Below the pieces are notes generated by a model that searched no databases, had not been told where the DNA came from, and worked only from the letters and a program-made list of their open reading frames with translations. Shown piece after piece: positions 17,711 through 25,118 of a DNA stretch of 37,292 nucleotides. Position numbers and translations under genes: made by a program. Numbering within the stretch: position 1 is the stretch's first letter; the number at the start of each line of letters is the position of its first letter. The stretch is from Candidatus Magasanikiibacteriota bacterium (lineage in GTDB: Bacteria; Patescibacteriota; Patescibacteriia; Magasanikbacterales; UBA922): positions 1-37,292 of the forward strand of contig JABIBU010000014.1 of NCBI GenBank assembly GCA_018652595.1, written 5' to 3'.

Positions 17711-17742
17711 AAAATAGACCGTACTGTGGTACGGTCTATTTT
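17711..17742. terminator. Bidirectional terminator between uvrA and hisIE
   Basis: AAAATAGACCGTAC-TGTG-GTACGGTCTATTTT, perfect 14-bp stem, between convergent genes. Confidence 0.9.
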
Positions 17743-18356
17743 CTTCTCTTTTTTATTTCCCTAAGGATTTTTTCTATTTTTACATCTTTGTATACCAACA
17801 AAACCAGTAGGTGATAAAGTACATCTACACTTTCTTCTACTAAGCGCTGTTTTGTTTCTTTTTTCGCTGCTTGGCAGACCTCTTCTGCCTCCTCCATAAT
17901 TTTTTCTTCCATTTTAGATAAGCCTTGTTCAAGCATCTTTGTTGTATATGAATTCTTTGGTAGTTCTTTTTTTCTTTTTTCAATTACACTATATAGTTCC
18001 GCAATTATCCCAACATTAATTATATTTTTTTTCATGTTTTTATTATCAAAACAGGATTCTAGACCTGAGTGGCAGGTTGGCCCAATAGGTTTGACCTTGA
18101 TAAGTAGCGTGTCATTGTCACAATCCAAGTCTATGTTTTTTAGAAGCAAATAGTTTTTACTTTCTTCACCTTTCATCCAAAGCCGTTTTTTTGTGCGACT
18201 AAAAAACCAAACCTTTTTTGTTTTTATGGTTTTTTTGAGAGCCTTTTTGTTCATATATCCGAGCATAAGCACACGATTTGTTTGCTCATCTTGAATAACG
18301 GTTGGTATTAGATCATCCGTCTTTTTCCAATTGATTTTTTTTGTTACGTTTTTCAT
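17736..18356 (-). CDS. hisIE: Bifunctional phosphoribosyl-AMP cyclohydrolase / phosphoribosyl-ATP pyrophosphatase
   Basis: 'LMLGYMNKKALKKTIKTKKVWFFSRTKKRLWMKGEESKNYL', 'CDNDTLLIKVKPIGPTCH', C-terminal HisE 'KIMEEAEEVCQAAK'. Confidence 0.95.
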   Translation of the reverse strand: MKNVTKKINWKKTDDLIPTVIQDEQTNRVLMLGYMNKKALKKTIKTKKVWFFSRTKKRLWMKGEESKNYLLLKNIDLDCDNDTLLIKVKPIGPTCHSGLESCFDNKNMKKNIINVGIIAELYSVIEKRKKELPKNSYTTKMLEQGLSKMEEKIMEEAEEVCQAAKKETKQRLVEESVDVLYHLLVLLVYKDVKIEKILREIKKRRK

Positions 18357-19108
18357 AGTCTAATGTTTATCTCATTATTTATCAAATATTTTTTTAAGTC
18401 TTTAATTTCTAATTTTTTATAGTGAAATAAACTAGCTGCTAGAGCTGCACTAATGTCAGTTTTTTTAAATACTTTTAAAAAATCTTCTTTTTTACCAGCC
18501 CCACTTGAGGCAATGATGGGCAAATTAGTCACCTCGCTAATGGCTTTTAAAAGTTTAATGTCATATCCTTCATTTGTTCCATCGCGATCAAGCGAGTTTA
18601 CGAGTAATTCTCCAGCTCCGCGTTGTTCCATATCTTTACAGAATTCTATGGCATCTAGATTTGTGCGTTCACGACCACCATTTATATAAATTTTCCAAGA
18701 GCCCCCCTCTTTTTTAGGGTCAACTGAAATTATAATGCATTGCGAACCAAATTCTTTGGTTGCTTTGTTTACAAAGTCAGGATCTGTAACAGAAGTGGAT
18801 CCAATTGAGATTTTGTCGGCGCCAGCATTAAGTAGATTTCTAATATCTTCAATTGTCTTTACTCCTCCTCCTACAGCAAATGGAATATTTATTTCTTTTG
18901 CAACACGACTAACAAGTTCGAGTAGAGTATTTCGGTTTTCTACTATTGCCATTACATCCAAAAAAATCAATTCGTCAATACCATTGTCACTATATAATTT
19001 TCCGAGCTCAACAGGATCTCCGGCATCATGAAGATTTTTAAAATTAGTTCCTTTTTTAACTCGCCCATCGGCTATATCCATGCAGGCGATGATTCTTTTG
19101 GTTAACAT
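18353..19108 (-). CDS. hisF: Imidazole glycerol phosphate synthase cyclase subunit
   Basis: 'LTKRIIACMDIADGRVKKGTNFKNLHDAGDPVELGKLYSD', 'GGGVKTIEDIR', 'DGTNEGYDIKLLKAISE'. Confidence 0.97.
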   Translation of the reverse strand: MLTKRIIACMDIADGRVKKGTNFKNLHDAGDPVELGKLYSDNGIDELIFLDVMAIVENRNTLLELVSRVAKEINIPFAVGGGVKTIEDIRNLLNAGADKISIGSTSVTDPDFVNKATKEFGSQCIIISVDPKKEGGSWKIYINGGRERTNLDAIEFCKDMEQRGAGELLVNSLDRDGTNEGYDIKLLKAISEVTNLPIIASSGAGKKEDFLKVFKKTDISAALAASLFHYKKLEIKDLKKYLINNEINIRL

Positions 19109-19125
19109 AACATTGATTTCACGGA

Positions 19126-19881
19126 TTATTTAAAGATTTTACAGATTTTTTTATAAGATAAATTTCCACCGAAGATATCTAATGCACTGCCAACGGTAAA
19201 ATTTATTTTTTTATTTCCTATTTTTTTTATTTTTTCAATATCACCAACATCTTTAATTCCCCCAGCATATGTTATGGGGATTTTGGTAAAGTTTTTTAAT
19301 ATCTTAAGTAATTCTTCTTCAATACCTTGTTTTCTACCTTCAACGTCCACACCATGGATAAGGAATTCATCACAGTATTTTGCAAGCATGTTTAGGGTAT
19401 CTAAATTAACTTCTAAATTTGTGAATGTTTGCCAACGATCTATAACTATATAATATTTTCCATCTTTTTTTCTACAACTCAAGTCTAGTATTAGACGATT
19501 CTTCCCAATAGTGTCGACAAGAGTTTGGAGTTTGCCAAAGTCGAGTTTTCCATTTTCAAAAATATATGAAGTGACAATAACACGACTTGCACCGTCACTG
19601 ATAAATTTTTTTGCATTGTCTAAATTTATTTCACCGCCAATTTGTAGACCGTCTGGGAAGGATTCCAAAGCAAAGAGTGCTTGTTTTTTCGTTTTTTCCT
19701 TCTTGTCTAACATAATAATGTGTCCACCGGATAGGCCATCTTTTTTATATAGATTAGCAAAATAAGAAGCGTCTTTGTCTGCCACAAAGTTTTCCGTAAC
19801 TGAAAAATTGTTAGTGAGCGTTGAGCCAATAATTTGTTTTACTTTTCCATCGTGTATATCAATACAAGGTCTAAATTGCAT
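19126..19881 (-). CDS. hisA: ProFAR isomerase of eukaryotic (HIS6-like) type
   Basis: '[20 protein letters not shown]', '[63 protein letters not shown]', '[14 protein letters not shown]'. Confidence 0.9.
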   Translation of the reverse strand: [251 protein letters not shown]

Positions 19882-19882
19882 A

Positions 19883-20470
19883 TTATAGTTTTAAGAAGTT
19901 TTCTAATATTTTTAAGCCGATTTTTCCTGATTTTTCTGGGTGAAATTGCGTGCCATAAAAGTTATCTTTTTGAATTACTCCGGCTGCAGAGATATTTCCA
20001 TACTTGTATGTAGCTAAGGTATTTTTATCATCAGTTTCTACATAATAAGAATTAACAAAGTAAACATAGTTCTCATCTCCAATCCCATCAAACAATGGAT
20101 TTTGTTGCGTTAGTTTCAGGTTATTCCAACCAATTTGAGGAATCTTTTCATCATCTGAAAAACGTTTAACCTCTCCTTTAATAATGCCGAAGCATTTTGT
20201 ATTATCTTCTTGTGAGTGTGGAAGAAGTAGTTGCGTTCCTAAACAAATACCTAAGAAGGGCTGTTTAATTTGTTTCATTACTTTATCAAGTCCTTTGGTT
20301 TTTAGGTCTTCCATTGCTGGTTTGGCTCGGCCTTGCCCTGGAAAAATTACTTTATTTGCTTTTAGTATTTTTTCTTTATCATCAGTAATTTCGTATTTAT
20401 AACCAAATTTTTCTAGGGCATTTGCAACCGAGGCTGTATTGCCAGCATTGTATTTTATTATTGCAATCAT
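19883..20470 (-). CDS. hisH: Imidazole glycerol phosphate synthase glutaminase subunit
   Basis: 'YNAGNTASVANALEKFGY', 'FLGICLGTQLLL' nucleophile, 'YGTQFHPEKSG'. Confidence 0.96.
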   Translation of the reverse strand: MIAIIKYNAGNTASVANALEKFGYKYEITDDKEKILKANKVIFPGQGRAKPAMEDLKTKGLDKVMKQIKQPFLGICLGTQLLLPHSQEDNTKCFGIIKGEVKRFSDDEKIPQIGWNNLKLTQQNPLFDGIGDENYVYFVNSYYVETDDKNTLATYKYGNISAAGVIQKDNFYGTQFHPEKSGKIGLKILENFLKL

Positions 20471-20471
20471 A

Positions 20472-21062
20472 TTATAGTTTTCCTTTAGTGCTTGGTAGTA
20501 TATTTTTCATGCGAGGGTCATTCTCAACTGCCATTTTTATGGTTTTTGCTAGGGATTTAAAAATAGCTTCAACTTTGTGGTGTTCATTTTGACCATACTT
20601 TATTTCAATGTGTAAATTACAACTCAAACTTTGGGCAAATGCGGTGAAAAAATCTTCTAATAGTTCTGTTGGTAAATCCCCGATGTATTCTCGTTTGGGT
20701 TTATAATTAAACACTAGATAACTTCTTCCGCCAAGATCTATAGCCACTTGTGACAAGGTTTCGTCCATGGGTAAAAGAAATCCGTATCTTCTGATTCCTT
20801 TTTTGTTTCCCAAAGCTTTTTTTATTGCTTGCCCTAAACAAAGTCCAATATCTTCAGTAGTGTGGTGTTCATCTGTTTGTAAATCTCCTGTCGCTTTGAT
20901 GGCTAGGTCAATTAAGGAGTGTTTAGAAAATAGCTCTAACATGTGGTTTAAAAAACTAATTCCAGTATTTATGTTATATTTTCCAGTGCCATCAAGATTT
21001 ACCCTAATTTTGATTTGAGTTTCATTCGTGTTTCGTTCAATTGTAGCTGTTCTTTTTTTCAT
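20472..21062 (-). CDS. hisB: Imidazoleglycerol-phosphate dehydratase (monofunctional)
   Basis: 'GISFLNHMLELFSKHSLIDLAIKATGDLQTDEHHTTEDIGLCLGQAI', 'NEHHKVEAIFKSLAK'. Confidence 0.97.
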   Translation of the reverse strand: MKKRTATIERNTNETQIKIRVNLDGTGKYNINTGISFLNHMLELFSKHSLIDLAIKATGDLQTDEHHTTEDIGLCLGQAIKKALGNKKGIRRYGFLLPMDETLSQVAIDLGGRSYLVFNYKPKREYIGDLPTELLEDFFTAFAQSLSCNLHIEIKYGQNEHHKVEAIFKSLAKTIKMAVENDPRMKNILPSTKGKL

Positions 21063-22630
21063 ATATTTAATTTGAACGCTTGGTTAGTTTTTATTTTAAT
21101 AAAGTTGAGTTTTAAATTTTCTGCCAAGTCTTTATCATCATTACTATTGCCTATAACCACACTTTTTTTCCAATTAATATTGTTATCTCTGATGAAATTA
21201 TCCAATAATCCTGTTTTGGGTTTGCGACAATTGCAGTTATTTTTTGGTAAATGTGGACAAATAAAGATTTTTTCAAATTCAATTCCATTATCTTTGAAAA
21301 TTCTAAGCATTTCATTTTGCACTTCATCAAACTTTGATTCTGGAAATTTGTTAGTACCAAGTCCGTCTTGATTTGAAATTAAAACAAGTCTATAGTTTTT
21401 ATTTATTAGTTTTTGTAGACCTTCAATTACTCCTGGTAGGATTTTTAATTTTTCAAAACTATCTATTTGATAAGGTGTATCACCCGGTTTGGTTTCTGTA
21501 GGTGTGGGTTCATAAATTAAAGTTCCGTCTCGGTCAATAAAGGCATAGGTATCTTTTTTAGGCTGGTTAATTTGTCTATAAGCACTTATAAATTCAGCTG
21601 TTTGTTGGGCGGTTCCTAGTGTAACTCGAATGGTGTTATTAATAATCCCACCCTTTCTAGGGCGGGTGAAAAAGTTGTTATTTTTAAAATAATTAAAGGC
21701 TTGATTTGAATTTTTTGGTTTAAATAAAATAAAGTTTGCTTGGCTTGGATAAAATTTTATTTTTTCTTTTTTAAAATAATTTTCCAGCATTGGCTTTGAA
21801 ATATTCATGACTTCATCGACATAGTCATAGAGCAGGTTGAGATTTTTTAGGGCAGCTTTAACTGCGCAAAGGGCAGGCATATTTGTATCATAGGGACCAC
21901 GGACTTTCATTATTTCTGCTAGTAGTTTTTGATTACCAACAGCATAACCAATTCGCAATGCTGCCAAGCCAAATGCTTTCGAAAATGTCCGAGTAATAAT
22001 TAAATTTTTATATTTTTTTATCAGAGGAATTGCGGTTACTCCAGAAAATTCAGCATAAGCTTCATCTATCAATATAACGGCCTTGGGGGCTTTCTTTATG
22101 ACTGCTTCTATATCTTTTATCGGCGCCAAAGTGCCGGTTGGATTATTTGGATTGCAAATTATTATTAATTTGGTCTTAGGATTGATTTTGTCTAGAATTT
22201 CTTGTGTGGGGAAAGATAAATCTTTTCCTTGATATAAAGGGCTAATTATTTTATTACCAACGATTTCAGCGCATTGATAAAACATGGCAAAACTGGGTGA
22301 AGGAATTATAACCTCATCGTTCGTTTTAGTAAAAGTTCTAAACACCAGATCTATTGCTTGGTCTGATCCGTTTGTAATAATAATATTTTGGGGTTTTATT
22401 TTTGTATAATTAGCAATTTCTTTGGCAATGTTACTATATTCTGGATAAATCTGCATTTTGTCCTCGGTCAGCATTTTTCCTAATGCTTCTTTTATAACAC
22501 CGCCATAAGGCGTGGTTCTCTCATTAAAATCTAGAAGTAAACAACCAGAACCACGCCTACCTTCCAAAGGTGGTTTATAGGGCTTCATTTTTTGTATGTT
22601 TTTGTTAGCTAGATTAGGCATATTATTCAA
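21059..22630 (-). CDS. hisC: Fusion: histidinol-phosphate aminotransferase (N-term) + histidinol-phosphate phosphatase (HAD, HisB-N type, C-term)
   Basis: HisC: 'ITNGSDQAIDLVFRTF', 'NPNNPTGTLAPI', 'TRTFSKAFGLAALRIGY'. Phosphatase: 'YAFIDRDGTLIYEPTPTE', 'LVLISNQDGLGTNKFPE', 'CPHLPKNNCNCRKPKTGLLD'. Confidence 0.92.
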   Translation of the reverse strand: MNNMPNLANKNIQKMKPYKPPLEGRRGSGCLLLDFNERTTPYGGVIKEALGKMLTEDKMQIYPEYSNIAKEIANYTKIKPQNIIITNGSDQAIDLVFRTFTKTNDEVIIPSPSFAMFYQCAEIVGNKIISPLYQGKDLSFPTQEILDKINPKTKLIIICNPNNPTGTLAPIKDIEAVIKKAPKAVILIDEAYAEFSGVTAIPLIKKYKNLIITRTFSKAFGLAALRIGYAVGNQKLLAEIMKVRGPYDTNMPALCAVKAALKNLNLLYDYVDEVMNISKPMLENYFKKEKIKFYPSQANFILFKPKNSNQAFNYFKNNNFFTRPRKGGIINNTIRVTLGTAQQTAEFISAYRQINQPKKDTYAFIDRDGTLIYEPTPTETKPGDTPYQIDSFEKLKILPGVIEGLQKLINKNYRLVLISNQDGLGTNKFPESKFDEVQNEMLRIFKDNGIEFEKIFICPHLPKNNCNCRKPKTGLLDNFIRDNNINWKKSVVIGNSNDDKDLAENLKLNFIKIKTNQAFKLNI

Positions 22631-23918
22631 ATCTTACGTTGCAAGAATATTTGTGGGCTGGTAGTCCCTCGATTTCAGCAAAGGTTTGGATAGATTTACT
22701 TATTTTTTCCAGACCTTCCTTGCTGCATTTTTGGTATTCGACTAGTCGGACAAAATCAAGGACAGAGAGTCCGGAAAACATTTTTGCTGATCCACCAGTC
22801 GGTAAGACATGATTAGCACCAGTGGCGTAGTCTCCAGCAGATTTGCAAGTGTAATCACCAATAAATATAGATCCTGCGTTAGTGATTTTTTTAGCAATAC
22901 TTTGTGCATTTTTAGTCATAATCTGAATGTGTTCTGGTGCATAATCATTGGCAAATTCGATTGCTTCTTCAATGTTGGTAACTAACGCAAAGAGTCCGTA
23001 GCGTTTCATTGATTTTTGTATGTTTTTTTGAGTATCAAATTTGTTTATATTTTTTTTGATTTCATACCAGATTTTTTCTGCCAATTTTTTTGATGTTGTA
23101 ATTAGTATAGGAGCTGAGTCAGGTCCGTGTTCGGCATCGGCCATGAGATCGGCGGCTACAAATTTTGGATTGGCTGCTTCGTCTGCTATAACAAACACTT
23201 CAGATGGGCCAGCAGGGGAGTCAATAGCAATTTCTCCACTCATTAGTCCAGCTAGTTTTGCGGCAGTTACATAGGCATTTCCAGGGCCAACCACCTTATA
23301 TACCTTAGGCACGATTTCAGTGCCATAGGTTAGGGCTGCAATGGCTTGAATTCCACCAATTTTATAAATCTCGGTTATTCCTAGTTTATTAGCTGCTACA
23401 AGTAATTCTGGAGCAATTAGTCCGTTTTTTTGTGGAGGAGTTGTTATAATTATTTGCTTACACCCCGCAACTATTGCTGGTATAGCATTCATTAATACTG
23501 ACGATGGATAGAGAGCTCGGCCACCAGGGACATATAGTCCTACTTTTTCTATAGGTTGCCATTTTTTCCAGACGCGTATTCCTGGTTCTGGTTTTATTAT
23601 ATTTTGAGCGTTAATAGGAATTTGATTTTGGTGTACTTTAGTAATATTTTTGATCGTTTGTTCCAAGGCTCGTAAAAATTCTTTACTTACTTTTGTGTAA
23701 GCTTTTTGTATTTCTTCTTTTTTTACTTTTGTATCTTGTATATTTAATTTATCAAATCGCTCTGTGTACTTTTTTACGGCTTTGTCACCATTTTTTCTAA
23801 CATCTTTCATAATGTCTTGTACAAGTCCAAATATATCCTCGTAATTTTCTTTACCACGGTTCATTATTTTTTTATATCTGTCTGTTTTTTTAAATTGTTT
23901 GAGATTTACGATTTGCAT
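22623..23918 (-). CDS. hisD: Histidinol dehydrogenase
   Basis: 'EKVGLYVPGGRALYPSSVLMNAIPA', 'VVGPGNAYVTAAK', 'GPSEVFVIADEAANPKFVAADLMADAEHGPDS'. Confidence 0.98.
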   Translation of the reverse strand: MQIVNLKQFKKTDRYKKIMNRGKENYEDIFGLVQDIMKDVRKNGDKAVKKYTERFDKLNIQDTKVKKEEIQKAYTKVSKEFLRALEQTIKNITKVHQNQIPINAQNIIKPEPGIRVWKKWQPIEKVGLYVPGGRALYPSSVLMNAIPAIVAGCKQIIITTPPQKNGLIAPELLVAANKLGITEIYKIGGIQAIAALTYGTEIVPKVYKVVGPGNAYVTAAKLAGLMSGEIAIDSPAGPSEVFVIADEAANPKFVAADLMADAEHGPDSAPILITTSKKLAEKIWYEIKKNINKFDTQKNIQKSMKRYGLFALVTNIEEAIEFANDYAPEHIQIMTKNAQSIAKKITNAGSIFIGDYTCKSAGDYATGANHVLPTGGSAKMFSGLSVLDFVRLVEYQKCSKEGLEKISKSIQTFAEIEGLPAHKYSCNVRFE

Positions 23919-24528
23919 ATTTTTCTATTTTTTCAAATATATTATTTTTTTGAGATTTATTAATAGGACTTTCAATAAGTACTGCCTCTGACTCTAGGAT
24001 TACTTCAATTATCTGCAATTTGTTTTCTTTCAGGCTTCTGCCAGTTTGAGTAATATCGCAAATCAGATCAGCCAGCCCCATCTTTGGTGCAATTTCTACA
24101 GAACCGGATAAGTAAATCACCTTACTGTATATTTTTTTCTCTTTTAGGTATTTTTTTAGAATATTTGGATAAGAGGTTGCTATAACTTTGTTTTGAAGGT
24201 CTTCTATTTTTTTAATCTGGCTATTTTGTGGTGAGGCGATCACTAGTTCGCATTTACTAAATCCCAATGTTTTATTTGTTTTTATAGATTCCTCTCTTTC
24301 TTCTATCACATCTTTGCCTATTATTCCAAAGTCGATTAATCCTTCATTCAAGTATTTTGGAATATCATCATCGCGCAGAAAGATTATTTCAGCGTTGGTT
24401 TTTTGGCAATTTGTAGAAAGAGTTTTTTCAGTATAATCAAAATTAAGACCTAGCGAAAGTAAAAAATCGATGCTTTCCTCTCGGAGGTGCCCCTTCTTTT
24501 GTATAGCTATTTTTAATTTATTTTTCAT
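23890..24528 (-). CDS. hisG: ATP phosphoribosyltransferase, long-form-like catalytic core without C-terminal regulatory domain
   Basis: 'LKIAIQKKGHLREESIDFLLSLGL', 'RDDDIPKYLNEGLIDFGIIGKDVIEE', 'YLSGSVEIAPKMGLADLICDITQTGRSLKENKL'. ATG at 24528 preferred over the TTG at 24549. Confidence 0.94.
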   Translation of the reverse strand: MKNKLKIAIQKKGHLREESIDFLLSLGLNFDYTEKTLSTNCQKTNAEIIFLRDDDIPKYLNEGLIDFGIIGKDVIEEREESIKTNKTLGFSKCELVIASPQNSQIKKIEDLQNKVIATSYPNILKKYLKEKKIYSKVIYLSGSVEIAPKMGLADLICDITQTGRSLKENKLQIIEVILESEAVLIESPINKSQKNNIFEKIEKYANRKSQTI

Positions 24529-24557: not shown

Positions 24558-24633
24558 TGGGGTGACTACCGGGAATTGAACCCGAATTACGAGGGCCACG
24601 ATCTCGTGTGTTGACCTATTACACTATAGTCAC
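24558..24633 (-). tRNA. tRNA-His(GTG), atypical anticodon loop
   Basis: GTGACTA...TAGTCAC acceptor, C73 plus encoded CCA, D stem GTGT/ACAC, T-loop TTCAATT; the stem ACGAG/CTCGT is centred on GTG. Confidence 0.88.
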
Positions 24634-24658: not shown

Positions 24659-24680
24659 AAAAAACCGCCTTTAAGCGATT
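24659..24680 (-). terminator. Intrinsic terminator between the his leader and tRNA-His (putative attenuator)
   Basis: Minus strand AATCGC-TTAAAG-GCGGTT followed by TTTT, G/C-rich stem bottom and a run of 6 T. Confidence 0.7.
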
Positions 24681-24683
24681 TAC

Positions 24684-24726
24684 AGATCTTGAAGCAAGCA
24701 CCAAAAGAGGAGCCTATTCAAGATCT
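24684..24726 (-). promoter_or_regulatory. Leader hairpin upstream of the putative attenuator
   Basis: Minus strand AGATCTTGAA (24726-24717) ... TTCAAGATCT (24693-24684), perfect 10-bp stem; inner partial pairing AGGCTCC/GGTGCTT. Confidence 0.75.
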
Positions 24727-24764
24727 TGTGTGTGATGCATTAAGTTTTGTATTTTGTTGTTCAT
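24714..24764 (-). CDS. Putative his leader peptide MNNKIQNLMHHTQDLE
   Basis: ATG AAC AAC AAA ATA CAA AAC TTA ATG CAT CAC ACA CAA GAT CTT GAA TAG; starts 8 nt after the -10 box; tandem His codons. Confidence 0.5.
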   Translation of the reverse strand: MNNKIQNLMHHTQDLE

Positions 24765-24786
24765 ATAGTACCATTGTATTACTACA
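24763..24786 (-). promoter_or_regulatory. Candidate operator (YerC/TrpR-like) over the -10 and start site
   Basis: ATGTAGTA-N8-TACTATAT, 7 of 8 arm positions symmetric (core TAGTA / TACTA). Confidence 0.4.
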
Positions 24787-24801
24787 TTGATACATTGTCA
24801 A
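24773..24801 (-). promoter_or_regulatory. Sigma70-type promoter of the tRNA-His/his operon
   Basis: Minus strand TTGACA-N17-TACAAT. Confidence 0.8.
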
Positions 24802-24819
24802 GTAGAGCTGTGGATAACT

Positions 24820-24844
24820 AAAATCCCGATCTAGTCGGGATTTT
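24820..24844 (-). terminator. Intrinsic terminator of the yerC-like gene
   Basis: AAAATCCCGA-CTAGA-TCGGGATTTT. Confidence 0.8.
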
Positions 24845-24845
24845 A

Positions 24846-25118
24846 TTATTTCTTCAAAATCTTTTTGTATCCACCCTCACCATGCTTCATCCAATGGGCT
24901 ATTCTGGTTACTGTGGTAGTACTCATTCCAGTCTTGGTTGCTACTTCACGATAGGGTAAACCTTTGTTTAGTAGCTCGGCTGCTTTCCAGCGGTTGGATA
25001 GTTCATCTAGTTCTTCCAGGGTGCACAGATCACGTAAGAAATTTTGCATGTCTACTTCTTTTTTTATAGACATCAGAGCCTTTGTAAGTTTTTTAAGCTT
25101 TGTTGTTTTCCAATTCAT
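24846..25118 (-). CDS. YerC/YecD family TrpR-like transcriptional regulator
   Basis: 'FLRDLCTLEELDELSNRWKAAELLNKGLPYREVATKTGMSTTTVTRIAHWMKHGEGGY'. Confidence 0.92.
   Translation of the reverse strand: MNWKTTKLKKLTKALMSIKKEVDMQNFLRDLCTLEELDELSNRWKAAELLNKGLPYREVATKTGMSTTTVTRIAHWMKHGEGGYKKILKK

Follow-up and report, generated by a model that had tools for sequence, protein, structure and literature searches.

How does a bacterium with a genome of 0.96 Mb adjust the expression of its histidine operon, and what part is played in this by a short open reading frame with two adjacent histidine codons? Patescibacteria are mostly uncultivated organisms with tiny genomes, and little is known about their gene regulation. 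In the open-licence literature, we found no paper on attenuation with a leader peptide in the Candidate Phyla Radiation, nor one that deals with his regulation and riboswitches in Patescibacteria. The window analysed here is a stretch of 37,292 nt from a Magasanikbacteria-like patescibacterium, whose close GTDB relatives are titled Candidatus Magasanikbacteria and other Patescibacteria. Its minus strand carries, in this order, a hisR/yerC-like gene, a terminator, a promoter with a palindrome, a leader ORF, a hairpin (P1), an intrinsic terminator, a tRNA-His and the his operon. The first-pass annotation had read part of this region as a classical histidine attenuator, and every element that it named was found in place on the minus strand.

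We argue that the his operon is probably under dual histidine control, by a HisR-like repressor at the promoter and by ribosomes stalling at the His-His codons of the leader, and put the probability of this reading at about 0.7. It builds on what we observed at this and related loci, namely a conserved anatomy, selection on the His codons, covariation in P1, a fixed spacing, the absence of an antiterminator and the co-occurrence of the operator with hisR.

The leader, its hairpin and its terminator

The leader peptide ORF (MNNKIQNLMHHTQDLE, 24714..24764, minus strand) has 16 codons, with its ATG at 24764 and its stop codon TAG at 24716-24714. The control codons CAT CAC are found at 24732..24737 on the same strand. 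No Shine-Dalgarno sequence is evident before the ORF. The his operon (17736..24528, minus strand) consists of hisG, hisD, hisC fused to a HisB-type phosphatase, hisB, hisH, hisA, hisF and hisIE; hisG, hisD, hisC-phosphatase and hisIE were identified by NCBIfam, and the remaining genes by position, ORFs and blast clusters. Immediately downstream of the attenuator/tRNA-His region is hisG (E 1.4e-60). The HisC and HisB-type histidinol-phosphatase domains form a single ORF of 523 aa (21059-22630 of the window), and are encoded by separate neighbouring ORFs in the related locus L037.

We compared the region with 61 related genomes, 15 of which have a close TrpR-like gene (at least 60% identity); hisG is present in three, each time adjoining that gene. 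A core set of 23 leaders was read downstream of the TrpR-like gene in those genomes and in 67 GTDB loci, and five leaders found later (L167, L168, L169, L171 and G024) brought the orthologous short ORF to 28 patescibacterial loci. Each species among the relatives is represented by a single metagenome-assembled genome. We ran a covariance model of the segment from the His codons to the terminator against the order: 21 of 88 genomes had a match at E <= 2.6e-8, one in each, and the next match was at 2e-5. Among leaders outside its training set, this model found L167, L168, L169 and L171, while G024 came from the tRNA-like search described below; four of these five have His-His. Since leaders were found through the hisR-like gene or through RNA models trained on some of them, those far from that gene are under-sampled. 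The HisR-like gene adjoins the leader in 23 loci. Both the covariance model and the comparison of leaders show that related genomes keep the short ORF, its His codons and the terminator, so that the loss of these elements, which the first-pass annotation had named as a refutation, was not what we observed.

His-His is retained in 21 of the 23 aligned leaders and 25 of all 28. Taken one at a time, the two positions are each His in 22 of the 23 leaders, and the neighbouring codons vary. That the constraint is on the His codons and not on a DNA motif came from the observation that all four synonymous spellings (CATCAC, CATCAT, CACCAC and CACCAT) occur. A single His is found in three of the 28 leaders, which read HY (L049), AH (L095) and HQ (L171), and among the aligned leaders only L047 has HHH. 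The window leader has two His codons and no run of three or more. The first-pass annotation had counted the presence of only two as a weakness; as two is the conserved state, it is no defect of this copy.

In 19 of the 23 core leaders, the distance from the first His to the stop codon is seven codons. With start, stop and length thus nearly constant, it could be argued that the ORF encodes a functional micropeptide and that the hairpins are incidental. When the 23 leaders are aligned on the first His, the sole other peptide position that nears the conservation of His is a Leu in the P1 arm. The residues that recur besides His-His, D and L, fall in the 5' arm of P1, where they covary as RNA, and the remainder of the peptide is variable except where P1 constrains it. 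A functional micropeptide is therefore very improbable.

P1 (24684..24726, minus strand) has its 5' arm in the last three sense codons and continues through the leader stop codon. It contains the perfect inverted repeat AGATCTTGAA/TTCAAGATCT (24726-24717 / 24693-24684). The intrinsic terminator (24659..24681, minus strand; stem 24662-24681, T-tract 24659-24664) follows only 2-3 nt past P1. The joint fold of P1 and the terminator has a predicted energy of -27.3 kcal/mol, and the 108-nt segment singled out by the first-pass annotation folds at -29.2 kcal/mol (z = -4.6), with one of 200 shuffles equally good. In an alignment of 22 sequences, seven of the eight lower pairs counted in P1 have compensatory changes on both sides. 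The whole structure is paired in 93% of the cells of this alignment; the figure is 86.7% for shuffles and 22-48% for slid controls. None of 500 shuffles reached the covariation score of the P1/terminator alignment. The aligned leaders have a conserved terminator stem and a T-tract between the leader ORF and the first gene.

The spacing of these elements is also conserved. As masked folds partly impose the offset of P1, we took the spacing from unmasked folds, in which a contiguous P1 starts 12-15 nt from the first His codon (His1) in 17 of the 23 leaders, or in 19 of 23 when the outermost pair is used. The gap between P1 and the terminator is 0-5 nt in all 23. We conclude that the combination of leader, hairpin and terminator is real and beyond chance. 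Its counterparts in Rfam were not found: the leader matches no known RNA family there, the his leader family (RF00514) had no match in the window at E <= 10, nor any in relatives at E <= 0.5, and the T-box model gave none in either.

A HisR-like gene and a putative operator at the promoter

Upstream of the leader lies a hisR/yerC-like gene of the TrpR family (24846..25118, minus strand), which encodes a 90-aa putative histidine-responsive repressor. The protein matches TIGR02531 (yecD_yerC) with 59.6 bits, above the cut-off of 42.2, and scores below the cut-off of the TrpR model. The solved structure closest to it is 3g1c, named HisR of E. eligens in PMC9413887. The gene ends in an intrinsic terminator (24819..24845, to which we assign no strand) that separates it from the leader transcript; the 12-pair stem and T-tail of this terminator are listed on the plus strand, and being near-palindromic it reads on the minus strand too. 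Several relatives likewise have a hairpin and T-run at the end of the hisR-like gene.

The leader promoter has the -35 hexamer TTGACA (24796..24801) and, after a 17-nt spacer, the -10 hexamer TACAAT (24773..24778), both on the minus strand. Judging from this spacing, the transcript is predicted to start 1-3 nt ahead of the leader ATG and to be near-leaderless. Overlapping the promoter is a 20-bp palindrome, the putative HisR operator TGTATCAATGTAGTAATACA (24775..24794, minus strand), which agrees at 18 of 20 positions with TGTATTAATGTATTAATACA, the family consensus. The palindrome overlaps the promoter in all 23 leaders, at an offset of 18 nt from the start of the -35 hexamer in every one except the window, where it is 7. 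When the 61 genomes were searched for TGTATTAATGTATTAATACA with one mismatch permitted, matches came from 12 of the 15 that have a close hisR-like gene, and the other 46 gave none (Fisher p 2.6e-10). G028, a genome without the leader, has the palindrome immediately upstream of its hisR-like gene, a position consistent with autoregulation by the HisR-like protein. The consensus closely resembles the one given for proteobacterial HisR and TrpR in PMC9413887, and in more distant relatives (L016-L020) the hisR-like promoter carries an ACTTTA..TAAAG(T) palindrome like the Firmicutes HisR consensus of that study.

Binding of R. gnavus HisR to an operator site has been demonstrated to be stimulated by histidine (PMC9413887). 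Homology, position and co-occurrence suggest that the HisR-like protein, with histidine as co-repressor as in characterised HisR, would bind the promoter palindrome and block initiation when histidine is plentiful. Both the repressor gene and the putative operator had been overlooked by the first-pass annotation and were identified in this study. The strong conservation of the operator, together with the shortness of the terminator stem (6-8 pairs), would also suit a simpler scheme in which histidine acts through HisR repression alone, the leader ORF and P1 serve to brake the ribosome or to stabilise the RNA, and readthrough of the terminator is a constant leak. We consider this scheme unlikely, for it leaves the selection on His codons across synonymous forms and the fixed spacing of His codons, P1 and terminator unexplained.

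A DnaA-box-like motif, TTATCCACAG, is located 7 nt upstream of the -35 hexamer (24808..24817, minus strand). A his-specific role for such an element is an idea from PMC10989985 for E. coli. In the 61 related genomes, the motif TTATCCACA sits 7-10 nt 5' of TTGACA at more than 70 sites, compared with none in the reversed control. We rejected a his-specific role because many promoters of the lineage have this motif ahead of TTGACA; it is possibly a general promoter element there.

Ribosome position and the fate of the terminator

In the classical scheme, the hairpin's 5' arm lies under a stalled ribosome, and the freed loop or 3' arm acts as an antiterminator. The first-pass annotation had proposed such refolding, with the loop segment CCUCUUUU pairing with AAAGGCGG in the terminator. 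The list of parts is indeed the same as in the enterobacterial and Firmicutes attenuators (PMC9413887), and in three distant relatives (L069, L091 and L018), in which the His run is in the tail of the regulator, segments that could compete with the terminator by alternative pairing are apparent by inspection only. In the window, the proposed pairing has a probability of at most 0.0004 even with the entire 5' arm of the hairpin masked, and under the same masking the terminator is still formed with a probability of 0.998. Duplex energies of the whole P1, its loop or its 3' arm against either terminator arm gave complementarity above shuffles in none of the 23 leaders at p < 0.05. With the terminator itself barred from forming, essentially nothing replaced it in any leader, and no conserved 2:3 antiterminator of the classical, mutually exclusive kind was found across the 23.

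The position of the ribosome also argues against the classical scheme. P1 formation depends on ribosome position in silico: a ribosome at the stop codon abolishes P1, one with His1 in the A site lets P1 form completely, and one at the second His codon (His2) leaves it short of about three pairs. While a ribosome waits at His1, P1 begins at its leading edge, outside the footprint, so that the stall should leave P1 formed and not covered. The terminator, moreover, is predicted at all ribosome positions tested, which means that mutually exclusive folding does not explain readthrough. Taken together, a classical attenuator is improbable here: the leader with His codons, the hairpin and the terminator stood as a conserved unit before his genes, while the refolding mechanism did not.

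Another way past the terminator would be starvation-induced frameshifting at His-His, with P1 as the stimulator and ribosomes passing the stop codon into the terminator. The 6-nt spacer from His-His to P1 resembles the geometry of -1 frameshift sites. CAY CAY is not a slippery sequence, however, and in most leaders neither shifted frame stays open to the end of the terminator. As the shifted frames are not conserved as open, we rejected frameshift bypass of the leader stop, and hold this explanation to be the least credible of all.

How, then, could dual control by HisR and by stalling at His-His work? Transcripts that start would be tested by translation of the near-leaderless 16-codon leader. 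When charged tRNA-His is plentiful, the ribosome would reach the stop codon and its footprint would keep the 5' arm of P1 open, so that the terminator forms and RNA polymerase stops. When charged tRNA-His is scarce, the ribosome would wait at His-His. P1, about 12 nt after the first nucleotide of His1, would then be at the mouth of the mRNA channel and stay folded. It is from this arrangement that we infer regulation by histidine and the direction of the response.

A folded P1 at the channel mouth should further hinder tRNA from entering at His2. Binding of tRNA to the A site is blocked by stem-loops that lie 11-12 nt from the codon in the P site (PMC7282821). A ribosome that holds His1 in its P site has His2 in its A site, and would put P1 at this distance; P1 may thus sharpen the stall at His-His.

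Folded P1 might also block the abutting terminator. A hairpin of 13-20 bp, flush with the 5' strand of the terminator, would bar that strand from the RNA exit channel. What leads us to such a steric block, which we offer tentatively, is that P1 is present when the ribosome stalls and that no conserved competing pairing exists. We found no precedent for this step in the open-licence literature, and a survey treats closely spaced hairpins as favouring termination, contrary to it (PMC8355165).

Related loci and known systems

The hisR-leader-his order of the window is one case of a recurrent module. A his operon follows the leader in eight loci (the window, L037, L040, L043, L047, L075, L095 and L082); hisS heads two of these operons, and one of the two also has tRNA-His. 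Many genomes have the leader ahead of genes without obvious tie to histidine synthesis, such as those for alanine racemase (L039), phosphorylase-superfamily enzymes (L050, L051 and L053), an aspartoacylase-like protein (L045 and L055), an S66 carboxypeptidase (L052), an aromatic amino acid lyase (L041, and the third gene in L054) and, in other loci, radical SAM proteins. An M20 peptidase gene is second in L054 and directly follows the leader of L049 (L049:8281-8408), in which His-Tyr-Tyr replaces His-His; this leader might reflect tyrosine sensing or a switch of specificity.

A second layout is found in Gracilibacteria, Peregrinibacteria and some Parcubacteria, where the HisR-like protein itself ends in the His run, with C-terminal tails such as GAHHHTNT, LGHHHHNS, RTHHSSS, AQHHTHHHT and RLHHL. 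His-rich tails occur in L069, L077, L091, L093, L017, L018 and L019/L170, mostly just before a terminator and the target genes; in L091 and L093 the tail is followed by a terminator and then hisG. The coding sequence of the regulator may double as its own leader peptide in this layout.

Between the attenuator and hisG, the window has a tRNA-His (GUG; 24558..24633, minus strand), the second of the genome. Its anticodon arm is atypical, with C33 and an A-C mismatch in the anticodon stem, and a canonical copy is found elsewhere in the genome (G000:C18:38391-38462). A tRNA-His lies between the terminator and the first gene in the window and in L047. In the same place, L035, L036, L037, L039, L063 and L169 have a cloverleaf of 70-75 nt, which neither ARAGORN nor Rfam called where tested. 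It aligns end to end with tRNA-His and in most cases has GUG in the anticodon loop, and is without the usual D- and T-loop signatures. Among these six alone, 93.5% of cells are paired, and the covariation score is beyond all 500 shuffles. A model of the cloverleaf gave eight strong matches in the 88 genomes, all within about 160 nt downstream of a leader, and its weaker matches were ordinary tRNAs. Cloverleaves are located at L039:6899-6972, in L037 (G081:C38:15352-15425), L035 (G031:C1:82213-82285), L036 (G032:C42:12410-12479) and L063 (G040:C8:7889-7960), and at G066:C7:6711-6785, G024:C50:278-352 and G075:C41:32185-32261. In L234 and L237, a 68-nt stretch (GCTGA..TCAGCCGTTCGGG..ACCGCCACCGTGGGCGGCTCT) about 10-80 nt past the cloverleaf has 81% identity between G066 and G075, and is possibly another structured RNA.

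A tRNA-His-like cloverleaf after a His attenuator is previously undescribed. It would be produced only on readthrough, and our guesses at its role are a decoy that binds HisRS or a signal for processing by RNase P/Z. One can combine these elements into an attenuator free of antiterminators, in which P1 at the leading edge of the stalled ribosome would stiffen the stall and sterically block the flush terminator, HisR would act at the promoter, and the readthrough-only cloverleaf derived from tRNA-His would add a possible second regulatory layer in eight relatives. That all of this holds together is rather unlikely.

Dual control by HisR-type repression and His-codon attenuation at one locus would mean that tiny genomes can keep a control like that of the trp operon. 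The fixed spacing of His codons, P1 and terminator without an antiterminator is a specific and testable departure from the textbook model. In relatives without hisG, the leader marks genes that are likely tied to histidine status, namely those for peptidases, racemases and aromatic amino acid lyase.

The enterobacterial his leader (RF00514, hisL) shares with the present locus a short ORF with His codons, a hairpin, an intrinsic terminator and a his operon downstream. In contrast to its run of His codons, there are two here; the hairpin begins past the ribosome footprint, whereas the enterobacterial hairpin includes the control codons; and the present leader has no antiterminator pairing and is coupled to a HisR-like repressor. 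The E. coli trp operon combines the TrpR repressor at the promoter with ribosome-sensed attenuation at trpL, which uses a 2:3 antiterminator. The logic proposed here, a TrpR-family repressor plus attenuation, is the same, but it serves histidine, with another hairpin geometry and without the 2:3 antiterminator.

Histidine attenuators of Firmicutes (Bacillus cereus group, Peptostreptococcaceae and Erysipelotrichales; PMC9413887) also place His leader peptides before his operons. They were predicted by comparative genomics, with 3-5 consecutive His codons and predicted antiterminators, in a study whose main text does not name Patescibacteria (PMC9413887). These attenuators were sought only in genomes without HisR (PMC9413887), whereas here the HisR-like gene and the attenuator are found at one locus. 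With the HisR (YerC) regulon of the same study, the locus shares a YerC/TrpR-family gene beside his genes and a 20-bp palindrome at the promoter. The difference is that the putative site here would control a leader transcript that is attenuated too.
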